From Bacteroidota bacterium (GTDB taxonomy: Bacteria; Bacteroidota; Bacteroidia; JACCXN01), in NCBI GenBank assembly GCA_013696965.1, contig JACCXN010000044.1:70756-134755 (forward strand): DNA of 64,000 nucleotides, read 5' to 3'. The notes under the pieces were generated by a model. That model was not told where the DNA came from. It searched no databases and saw only the letters and a program-made list of their open reading frames with translations. Shown in pieces: positions 60,458 to 64,000 of this stretch. A program made the position numbers and the translations under genes. Numbering within the stretch: the stretch's first letter is position 1; the number at the start of each line of letters is the position of its first letter.

Positions 60458-62398
60458 ATGGAACAAGTAATTTTTAAGAAGCTTTTTCACAGGGGGAATT
60501 TTCAAATTGGCATTGTTTTTAGGCGCAATAATGAAATAGTAGAAAAACTAAAAACAATATTTTCACTCTGGAGTAAGACCCACAAATGTTGGTATGTTAA
60601 ATACAGCAAGGAGAATTACCAAAAACTTAAAGTTATATTTAATGATTCAGAAATAACCATTGAAAAACCGGAAGGGACACATACAGTTTTGGAGCCTGGT
60701 TTGGAAACTCACCAAGAAAATGCTCCCATAGAATCCAGCAATGGAATCGCACTTCAGCAGTTAGAAAATGATGAACATAATTCTTTCATAGAGAATGAAG
60801 GTTTAAGGGAAGAGCCTACTAGTTTGAAAGCTACTTCTCCACCAAATGTGTTGGCCAAAGGAATTTTAGATATTCAGGAGTCTGGCTTGGAAAAGGACCA
60901 GGAAAATGCTCCCGTAGAATCCAACAAGGGAATGGCCGTTCAGGAAATTGAAATTGATGGACAAAATAAAGAACAAGCAGGGTTAAAAGCAAAGTTTGAA
61001 GTGCATCCCGATATTGGAAAATATTGGGTGCTGAGTTTGGCTTATTCCAGACCAATAAGCATTGCCATGCTTAAAATCAAGGGTGTTTATTGGAGTAATA
61101 ATTACAAAGTGTATATGATTTTTCGTCATGTAAACGTAAAGAATAAGGTGGAGGCTTTGCTTGGCATAAAAGATCTTTTGCCTAGTAATTACTATGTAAA
61201 TGAACAGAATGACAAATTTACTGCCGGGGAAATAATTATCAGTGTATTTCTAAGTGGAAAAAAATGGATGAAAGTTCAGCTCCCGGAAATTGCTGCCATA
61301 ATTAACCAGGTTAAACGATTACAGGGAAGTAAATATAACATGGATGAAATGGTATATTTGCTTCCCGCGACACCCGGAGTACTTAAAAATTTAGCGATAA
61401 TTGCAGAACAGTTCGGCATCAAAGTTATAAATGAGCTTCCAAATGGATATGCTAATACAAGGAATGAATTAAACATAAAAAGTATTAAACTTCAGGAGGC
61501 CGCAGAAAATTTACGCAAGCAGGTTCCTGCATCGTCAGAGATTTATCTCACTTCAATGCTGGATTATCTATTGGCAAATAATTACAGTCACAATACCATC
61601 CGCGTTTACACATCATCATTTATTCAATTTTTGAGGCATTTTGGCTATAAAAATCCTGATGATTTAAGTCAGAATGATGTAGTAAAATATTTAGGAAAAA
61701 TGATGCTCAAGGGGCTGTCCGCATCTGCGGGTCACTCCCTGGTAAATGCACTGTTGTTTTATTACCGGAATGTATTAAAGCGAGAGCGTTTTGAAATAGA
61801 TTTACCCAGACCAAAAAAAGAAAAAAAACTTCCAGTAGTATTAACTATGGCAGAGTGCTTTAGTGTTTTTGCTGCCATAAAAAATCCTAAACACAAGTTG
61901 TTGTTGCTATTGGCCTATGGAACAGGTTTGCGGTTAAGTGAACTAACGCATTTAAAATGGGAAGACATTTTGTGGGCAGAATATAAAATACACGTAAAAC
62001 AGGCAAAAGGCAAAAAGGATAGAATTGTAGGATTACCACATTCCATCGTTGTTTATTTAGAGCATTATCGATCACTATATCCGAGTGCAATTTGGGTATT
62101 TGAGGGCCAATATAAAGATGAACCGTATAGTTCAAGGAGCGTACAAGCAGTAATGAAAAGAGCCATAACCGAAGCCGGCCTGGAAAAAAATGCCACAGTT
62201 CATACTTTACGGCATAGTTTTGCCACACATTTATTAGAATCCGGAACAGATATTCGATATATACAGCAATTGCTTGGTCACAACAGCATACAAACCACAA
62301 CTATATATACTCATTTAACAAGCAAAGCAGCCAAAAAGATCCAAAGTCCATTAGACAACATGGCACATCAGATAGTAAATAAAAAGAAGCTAGAATAA
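60458..62398 (+). CDS. Tyrosine recombinase with an unusual N-terminus of three repeated domains
   Basis: 646 residues. The last ~300 are a XerC/D-type integrase: a SAM-like core-binding domain (about 355-440, with NNYSHNTIRVYTSSFIQFL) and a catalytic domain with Arg in GTGLRLSELTHLKWED, the box HTLRHSFATHLLE near 582, LLGHNSIQTTTIYTHL and the Tyr nucleophile near 617. The extra domain that marks integron IntI proteins is not present. The first ~330 residues hold three weakly similar alpha/beta units (CWYVKYSKENYQKLK; SNNYKVYMIFRHVN; EMVYLLPATPGVLK) that might be DNA-binding; a HARP-like fold is only a guess. Two linker copies (QENAPIESSNG, QENAPVESNKG) separate the first two. It lies 139 bp before unit 2. 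Confidence 0.88.
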   Translation: MEQVIFKKLFHRGNFQIGIVFRRNNEIVEKLKTIFSLWSKTHKCWYVKYSKENYQKLKVIFNDSEITIEKPEGTHTVLEPGLETHQENAPIESSNGIALQQLENDEHNSFIENEGLREEPTSLKATSPPNVLAKGILDIQESGLEKDQENAPVESNKGMAVQEIEIDGQNKEQAGLKAKFEVHPDIGKYWVLSLAYSRPISIAMLKIKGVYWSNNYKVYMIFRHVNVKNKVEALLGIKDLLPSNYYVNEQNDKFTAGEIIISVFLSGKKWMKVQLPEIAAIINQVKRLQGSKYNMDEMVYLLPATPGVLKNLAIIAEQFGIKVINELPNGYANTRNELNIKSIKLQEAAENLRKQVPASSEIYLTSMLDYLLANNYSHNTIRVYTSSFIQFLRHFGYKNPDDLSQNDVVKYLGKMMLKGLSASAGHSLVNALLFYYRNVLKRERFEIDLPRPKKEKKLPVVLTMAECFSVFAAIKNPKHKLLLLLAYGTGLRLSELTHLKWEDILWAEYKIHVKQAKGKKDRIVGLPHSIVVYLEHYRSLYPSAIWVFEGQYKDEPYSSRSVQAVMKRAITEAGLEKNATVHTLRHSFATHLLESGTDIRYIQQLLGHNSIQTTTIYTHLTSKAAKKIQSPLDNMAHQIVNKKKLE

Positions 62399-62536
62399 TT
62401 AACCCCAATTGTTTAGTAGCTTTAATAAAAACAATTCAAATAAAAATTAATTTACCATTAAATTTTTGCCTAAATTGGCAGAAGCAAAAACAGAAAAACT
62501 TTTAAAAAAGTACTATGTTTATTCCGATATTTAAGA

Positions 62537-63875
62537 GTTATAAGCAAGCCTAGGGGGCTGTGCAGCAAACCCTTGTCTAGCAAGCCGCACCGCCCTTTGC
62601 CTATCCTTCTGTATTTTTTTATTTTTCCCCTCACGCACTTTTTTTAATTTAATTTTTGCCATTGCACACAAATGCCACATTTACTTTTGCCCTTCCCGCG
62701 AAAACCCTTCCCACCTTGCAAAAGTAAAAGAGGCATTTCTCCCACCCCTTAAACAAAAACCAAAAGTGCCATTATTCTTTTATTGCGTTTGTTTTTTTAA
62801 TTTTTTTAATAATTTATTTTTGTCTTTAAGAGTTTTAGCATCAGGAACTTTAGAAACAATTTGTCTGACAGTGGTTATTGAAGTGTTGAATTTAGTTGCT
62901 AATTCCTGTGCACTGTTTCCTTTTGAAAACAAGGCAATAATTGATTTTTCAAATTCTTGTTTTTTTAATTGTTTTATAGTTTTTTTTCTGACAAGAAATA
63001 ATTTTGCTCCTTGTTCTCTAATAATAACGAGTCTTATAGCTTCTGGAGTAAGCCTATATTTCATTGCTATTTCCTTTATTGACTTTCCTGCCATATAGGA
63101 CTTAATAATCTGTTTATTGCGTTCTATTCTTTCATGATTAATTTTATATTTTACTATATTTTCTTTTTTATAGACTTCTATTTCTTTTGTAAGTATTTCA
63201 GTATTTCCTTGTATTTTATCACGGAGATAAATAATATACTCCTTTTCCTTCTTAAGCTTAGATTTCACTATATTTATTGAATGAAGTACTGTTGCATGAT
63301 TTCGATTAAAAACTTGACCAGCTTTTATACTAGTGAATTTTAAATCATTTACTAAGAAATAAAAAATCAAAGCCCGGCAATATACAACTTCTTGTTTTCT
63401 AGTTTTAGAAGAAAGTATTTTTGGATTTAGTCTAAAATAATTGCAAACTAATTTGATTAGCTTTTCAGTTTCTTTTTCAGGCGAATTAATTAATTCCATT
63501 TAATTAAAGTTTCAATTAAGTTGATTTGCTATTCTTACAATCTTACGCTAAATAAATTAAAAACACATAATAATCCAAAACAAATTAATTTTATAAATTT
63601 CCATTATCTAAAGAGTGAATGACTGGAAACAGCCAGCCCACGGGAAAAGCACATTTCCAATTCACACCGCCAACCGCTCAAACCAAAAATTGTAAATAAG
63701 CTTCTCCCTTTCCTCCCCAAGAAAATTAAATTAAAAAAATCCCCCCTCAAAAATAAAAAAATACCCAAGTCGCACTAGCCATGCAAAGTATAGTACAGAC
63801 AATTAAGCACTATTCATAAAAGCCTTTGATAATGCAGCTTTCCAAGCATTAATGAACATAAGGCCAGCTTATAAC
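62537..63875. mobile_element. Cassette-like unit 2, carrying the DnaA-domain-IV protein gene
   Basis: Bounded by the 15-bp inverted repeats GTTATAAGCAAGCCT (62537-62551) and AGGCCAGCTTATAAC (63861-63875), which match at 13 of 15 positions. Read on the minus strand it has the same left end as unit 1 (GTTAT, GGCCTTA, ATGAATAGTG, GTGCG, GAAGCTTATTT, CAATTTTTGGTTTGAG). It then has a gene, then the same right end (GAAATGCCTCTTTT, GCGGGAA, GGCAAAAGTAAATGTG, AGTGCGTGAGG). Orientation relative to unit 1 is reversed. The gene inside reads towards the right end, unlike in unit 1. Confidence 0.65.
62780..63499 (-). CDS. Protein with a stand-alone DnaA domain IV and two helix-turn-helix segments
   Basis: 239 residues, cytoplasmic. 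Residues ~10-75 match DnaA domain IV, the box-binding domain: LVCNYFRLNPKILSSKTRKQ, YCRALIFYFLVNDLKFTS, then NRNHATVLHSINIVKSKL, where the NHATVLHSI stretch corresponds to the DnaA-box-recognition helix. The AAA+ ATPase domain III is absent, so it cannot be a functional initiator by itself. Two probable helix-turn-helix segments follow, at ~125-155 (YMAGKSIKEIAMKYRLTPEA) and ~190-220 (SKGNSAQELATKFNTSITTV). The whole is rich in Lys. It fills cassette-like unit 2. Possible role: binding DnaA-box-like or unit-end DNA. Confidence 0.8.
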   Translation of the reverse strand: MELINSPEKETEKLIKLVCNYFRLNPKILSSKTRKQEVVYCRALIFYFLVNDLKFTSIKAGQVFNRNHATVLHSINIVKSKLKKEKEYIIYLRDKIQGNTEILTKEIEVYKKENIVKYKINHERIERNKQIIKSYMAGKSIKEIAMKYRLTPEAIRLVIIREQGAKLFLVRKKTIKQLKKQEFEKSIIALFSKGNSAQELATKFNTSITTVRQIVSKVPDAKTLKDKNKLLKKLKKQTQ

Positions 63876-63876
63876 A

Positions 63877-63991
63877 TTGCATATCCTCAAGTGGCGGTCT
63901 AGGTGCTCTATTGCAAAGCCTTTGATTTCTATTAACTTTGCTGCTCGCGGTTTTTGGTTCGGTGCAATAATCGCCACCTGCGTATATGCAA
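63877..63991. repeat. Long imperfect palindrome abutting unit 2
   Basis: TTGCATAT (63877-63884), 6 nt, GTGGCG (63891-63896) face CGCCAC (63972-63977), 6 nt, ATATGCAA (63984-63991). Both arms keep the same 8+6+6 spacing. A further ATTGCA/TGCAAT pair lies inside (63910-63915, 63963-63968). It starts 1 bp beyond the end of unit 2 and is cut off only by the window end at its right flank. Folding into a bulged hairpin recalls attC sites, but the core sequences do not match a known attC. Confidence 0.6.
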
Positions 63992-64000
63992 ATAACGTTA

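Follow-up and report, generated by a model that had tools for sequence, protein, structure and literature searches.

Sequence comparison points to the Bacteroidota having an integron lineage of their own, a reading that we consider likely: its integrases would recombine folded attC sites without the I2 helix, it would be present in most Bacteroidia genomes, it would have escaped notice because IntI is what integron finders look for, and it would mobilise resistance genes, erm(F) among them, in strains from the environment or associated with animals. The protein at which the analysis started, encoded in the window (the 64,000-nucleotide stretch of DNA analysed here), joins DnaA domain IV to helix-turn-helix (HTH) segments and is the smaller point, an orphan DNA-binding regulator that would travel as a cassette; the larger result is the integron lineage. 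If the lineage is real, a full attI, attC and cassette anatomy without I2 breaks the rule that I2 defines integron integrases, and the origin of integrons becomes directly testable. No account of an I2-less Bacteroidota integron lineage was found in the literature searched, a body of work with subscription papers and preprints mostly outside its scope.

The integrase, the attI-like site and the repeat array

The recombinase of the window (Table 1) combines an N-terminal extension of ~360 aa with an Xer/IntI-like catalytic region that lacks the IntI-specific insertion. It scores highest against the TIGR02249 integron integrase model (223.6 bits, below the cut-off of 265), followed by XerA (193), XerC (162) and XerD (157), and the distance from KGxxxR to HxLRH is 65 residues compared with 107 in VchIntIA (2a3v). 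Long integrases related to it, obtained in the class search and from the contig collection, are ~550-650 aa in length and carry a WSKTHxCWY motif in the N-terminal extension; in those examined the same distance is 65-68 residues. The insertion carrying the I2 helix was found neither in the window recombinase nor in the long-type integrases examined. I2 has been described as required for cassette capture, as unique to IntI, and as the acquisition that created integron integrases (PMC7790495), and archaeal IntIs are said to have an I2 domain too (PMC9668308); since I2 was looked for and not found, the platform is not a canonical IntI integron. Single-sequence structure prediction of the integrase was uninformative, with a pLDDT of 35. 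The linker of its N-terminal extension contains a 91-bp imperfect duplication (79%; window 60691-60967).

Table 1. Features of the integrase, the attI-like site and the first cassette (window coordinates).
Feature	Position	Strand	Basis
Integron-type tyrosine recombinase, 646 aa	60458..62398	+	TIGR02249 223.6 bits; best PDB match VchIntIA 2a3v
attI-like junction, AAAGTACTATGTTTATTCCGATATTTAAGA followed by GTT	62507..62539	+	Best window match to attI consensus
Cassette head arm, GTTATAAGCAAGCCT	62537..62551	+	Complementary to 63861-63875 except for central mismatches
First cassette, DnaA-domain gene on opposite strand	62538..63997	+	Head and tail complementary
Cassette gene, DnaA domain IV plus two HTH segments, 239-aa protein	62780..63499	-	Intact ORF, ATG start
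Second HTH segment, residues 187-217	62849..62941	-	HTH_28 2.9e-7; Mor and phage late-activator HTH
First HTH segment, residues 126-155	63035..63124	-	GerE 5e-5, CD3324_fam
DnaA domain IV, residues 12-76	63272..63466	-	Bac_DnaA_C E 2.1e-14
Block common to many cassettes, ~100-250 bp before attC	63614..63770	.	~20 partial copies, 70-95% identity
attC-like site of first cassette, ends GTTA at contig end	63861..64000	+	Repeat family, folding, covariation elsewhere

Scored against an attI consensus taken from other genera, the attI-like junction matches at 20/30 positions, and the next best of the 2331 GTT sites on both strands of the 64 kb at 17/30. A conserved AAAGTTGTATATATTTGATGATATTTACTA followed by GTT stands just past the integrase stop, and it occupies the same place in more than 20 loci. 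Integrase and array are linked by position, co-orientation and conservation, and on these grounds the assignment of the recombinase as the platform integrase, with the attI-like site at 62537 as the predicted insertion point, is well supported.

The DnaA-domain unit is located between this attI-like site, which follows the recombinase, and a hairpin attC-like site. Its head, GTTATAAGCaaGCCT at 62537, pairs with its own tail, AGGCcaGCTTATAAC at 63861, and the central mismatches of the head arm are of the same kind as those in other cassettes. The first-pass annotation had called the gene the only one of a cassette-like unit next to a recombinase; it is indeed the sole gene of any size from the recombinase up to the first repeat, and its integron-type matched ends take the unit beyond a mere likeness to a cassette. 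Over its first 210 bases the cassette shares 90% identity with the head of a different one (C68:4937-5283, L131) that lies after an attC-like site; this suggests that cassette heads are shared or recombined.

The window ends with its contig, within a 130-bp repeat that is present in ~28 copies at high identity, or ~45 by covariance model, on ~24 contigs of the genome; with the contig stopping at the first attC, the array is distributed over ~24 contigs. In most complete units, a few imperfect or degenerate ones aside, the sequence that follows the preceding GTT can pair with the tail that the same unit carries ahead of its own repeat, which is the sequence signature of units with a circular form, closed at the point of recombination. 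Cassettes in this genome reach up to 7 kb. For the attC-like site of the window, the bottom strand folds (z -2.3) and the top strand does not (z -0.3). The same genome encodes a shorter recombinase of 375 aa (L064:1501-2628, minus strand) that has the N-terminal module in common and an attC-like site downstream at 143-281, perhaps a second platform.

Related platforms in other Bacteroidota

Scanning with the N-terminal region of the integrase gave 62 loci in Flavobacterium, Psychroflexus, Algoriphagus, Ferruginibacter and other Bacteroidota. Searching 41 integrase loci with a site model built from the present genome alone gave 68 attC-like sites, every one of them on the plus strand and downstream of the integrase. 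The two ends of a unit, compared for 46 units from other genomes, match at 8.65 of 11 positions, against 4.43 for mismatched pairs; none of 20,000 within-locus permutations was as good, and the complementarity extends over 15 nt. Across 69 sites of other genomes, 93% of hairpin cells are paired and double changes number 409, compared with 116 in shuffled and at most 75 in slid alignments, figures to be read with the alignment having been fitted to the model and hence leaning toward structure. The cassettes at these loci mostly hold one sense ORF; erm(F), a toxin-antitoxin pair and genes for a glyoxalase-like protein and for a reverse transcriptase near Drt4 are among those carried. In Flavobacterium silvisoli, a reverse transcriptase near antiviral Drt4 (114 bits, below the cut-off) is encoded by the first cassette (L169:11499-13025, plus strand).

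A broader model, R2, matched 229 of 345 genomes of the class at E values up to 1e-4, a count that serves as a lead only, R2 being uncalibrated on unrelated genomes. R2 sites often lie near shorter recombinases (~360-400 aa) related to the window integrase; of the 85 top sites, 31 lie no more than 60 kb from a listed integrase, and each of these loci shows a single orientation.

Palindromic, multi-copy repeats could instead be ordinary dispersed elements of the REP or MITE kind, and the unit no recombining cassette. We rejected this reading, which we regard as extremely improbable, because the two ends of each unit match each other; it is further opposed by the mostly single ORF per unit, by the strict co-orientation of the repeats downstream of the integrase in many genera, and by the conserved attI.

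The platform instead has the anatomy of an integron and, judged from its sequences, probably works like one. A tyrosine recombinase stands beside the array with attI next to it, and the attC-like sites are conserved in structure, variable in sequence and folded from the bottom strand. With sedentary integrons such as that of Vibrio cholerae (VchIntIA) it has in common the tyrosine recombinase beside attI, the structured attC that folds from the bottom strand, the GTT(R) crossover, mostly one ORF per cassette, and a cargo of toxin-antitoxin, defence-like and resistance genes. Unlike VchIntIA, the present integrase lacks the I2-carrying insertion and has a long N-terminal extension; unlike in sedentary integrons, the outer arms of attC are ~15 nt long and cassette-specific, and cassettes are as large as noted above. 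Transcription of the integrase runs toward attI, a feature in common with Treponema integrons (PMC3607928). For comparison, IntegronFinder 2 reported one complete integron in Bacteroidetes proper, in Salinibacter ruber (PMC9024848).

A mechanism consistent with these observations would run as follows. Each unit of the array would be bounded by an attC-like site that can fold as a single strand, with outer arms drawn from the unit's own two ends, as the sequences support; the integrase would recombine attI with the bottom strand of attC in its folded form, in the manner of IntI but without the I2 helix; and the N-terminal module of the WSKTHKCWY type, common to long and short members, may replace I2 in hairpin recognition.

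The DnaA-domain protein as probable cassette cargo

The first-pass annotation had placed DnaA domain IV at the N-terminus, and the profile match to residues 12-76 confirms it (Bac_DnaA_C of Pfam, 53.7 bits, cut-off 31.5, E 2.1e-14), the same residues being matched by NCBIfam DnaA models. The annotation was also right about the missing ATPase: in Pfam and NCBIfam, no AAA+ ATPase, no DnaA domains I-II and no enzyme domain were matched in the 239-aa protein, only domain IV. Both attached HTH modules hold up as well, the second as a clear match (residues 187-217; HTH_28 2.9e-7, Mor HTH 7.5e-8) and the first more weakly (residues 126-155), GerE at 5e-5 being just under the cut-off and the segment by eye resembling the second. 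The full-length Mor domain is absent, with model positions 55-105 of 107 covered, that is, the C-terminal HTH only, and the Pfam/PHROG late-activator match is likewise limited to the HTH. Single-sequence structure prediction of the protein was uninformative, with a pLDDT of 52.

The host genome has a separate, normal DnaA of 474 aa elsewhere. Its domain IV reads SKTRKREVVQARQ...GGKDHATVLHAC and that of the cassette protein SKTRKQEVVYCRA...NRNHATVLHSI, with the SKTRKxEVV and HATVLH stretches common to both. In E. coli DnaA numbering, the cassette protein keeps the Arg399 position and HATVLH, has Asn at the Asp433 position, and is one residue shorter than host DnaA ahead of it.

Relatives of the protein are few and lie elsewhere. 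No full-length homologue was found in the 345 genomes of the class, and single-sequence queries, which reach close relatives only, found no close homologues in the contig collection, viral contigs or plasmids. A phage scan gave six weak matches to domain IV. One comparable protein is gp011 of Cellulophaga phage phi46:3, also short, which has DnaA domain IV but lacks AAA+ (32% identity over residues 4-119); its neighbours are replication and methylase genes and it lacks the tandem HTH, whereas the cassette protein is encoded alone in its cassette. A further five stand-alone DnaA_C proteins in the class occur mostly in phage-type neighbourhoods (Mu-like, tail and DnaB-like genes), and no attC-like repeat was found in the 3-kb stretches around them, a result that comes close to what the annotation had named as refuting its proposal, homologues always away from such repeats. 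The cassette protein took no firm place in a tree of DnaA domain IV. Subclass 2.1 of the REP-associated HUH transposases has Bac_DnaA_C as a C-terminal domain (PMC6006769), a likeness in that a DnaA-type HTH is re-used in a mobile-element setting; unlike these transposases, the cassette protein gave no Pfam match to an HUH/Y1 nuclease domain.

The annotation had further proposed that the protein recognises the unit ends or organises recombination, and the evidence does not support this: none of the 62 other loci with a related integrase has a DnaA_C homologue, this genome has a single copy of a stand-alone DnaA_C protein, and no exact TTWTNCACA DnaA box occurs in attI, attC or the DnaA-domain cassette, one-mismatch boxes being fewer there than by chance. 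Because of these three results, the lack of a homologue in the class and the phage-type relatives, we hold with good confidence that the DnaA-domain protein is cargo of the attI-proximal cassette in a chromosomal integron-like array, and we read it as standing outside the recombination machinery. Its probable source is a phage or another mobile element. With its DnaA-type HTH and tandem HTH of the late-activator type the protein would be a sequence-specific DNA-binding regulator, acting in trans on a transcriptional or replication target.

Two other roles can be set against the cargo reading. The protein might regulate the integron, binding attI, attC or the shared block before attC to control recombination or cassette expression; the gene does lie beside attI, the shared block at 63614-63770 is just upstream of its start codon, and the REP-associated transposases offer a precedent for the fusion of a DnaA-like HTH (PMC6006769), but its absence at the 62 related loci, its single copy, the lack of DnaA boxes in attI, attC and cassette, and the different first cassettes elsewhere (erm(F), reverse transcriptase, glyoxalase-like protein and others) make such a role very unlikely. 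It is also unlikely, in our view, that the protein is a DnaA antagonist that occupies DnaA boxes (TTATCCACA), whether at oriC or on a replicon entering the cell, and so prevents initiation in the manner of an interference or abortive-defence factor. Domain IV retains most DNA-contact positions of host DnaA and comes without an ATPase, and the lineage has a Drt4-like reverse transcriptase and a toxin-antitoxin pair among its cassette genes; against this, the Asp433 position is Asn, so that binding specificity may differ, and a search of defence families with PADLOC gave a weak CARF match and no other.

Resistance genes and Riemerella

Cassette-borne resistance genes recur on a plasmid of Riemerella anatipestifer (NZ_CP072192.1, L222), where seven attC-like sites space estT, erm(F), ere(D), blaOXA and others, and where five of six units have ends that match over at least the first nine bases. 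In the same species, passages of a 2026 report describe how the resistance gene aph(3')-IVb integrates without homology and how its 140-bp 3' segment folds like attC (PMC13148043), a parallel to the related attC-like sites of the present lineage on the Riemerella plasmid; these passages name no recombinase or attI and leave the mechanism open. If the lineage is real, it would be a candidate mechanism for this unexplained homology-free gene uptake, and for the clustered resistance genes of Bacteroidota. In Algoriphagus formosus, the first cassette carries erm(F) (L152:11827-12627, minus strand; 611.8 bits, cut-off 575), and the gene is antisense to attC, as is the DnaA-domain gene.
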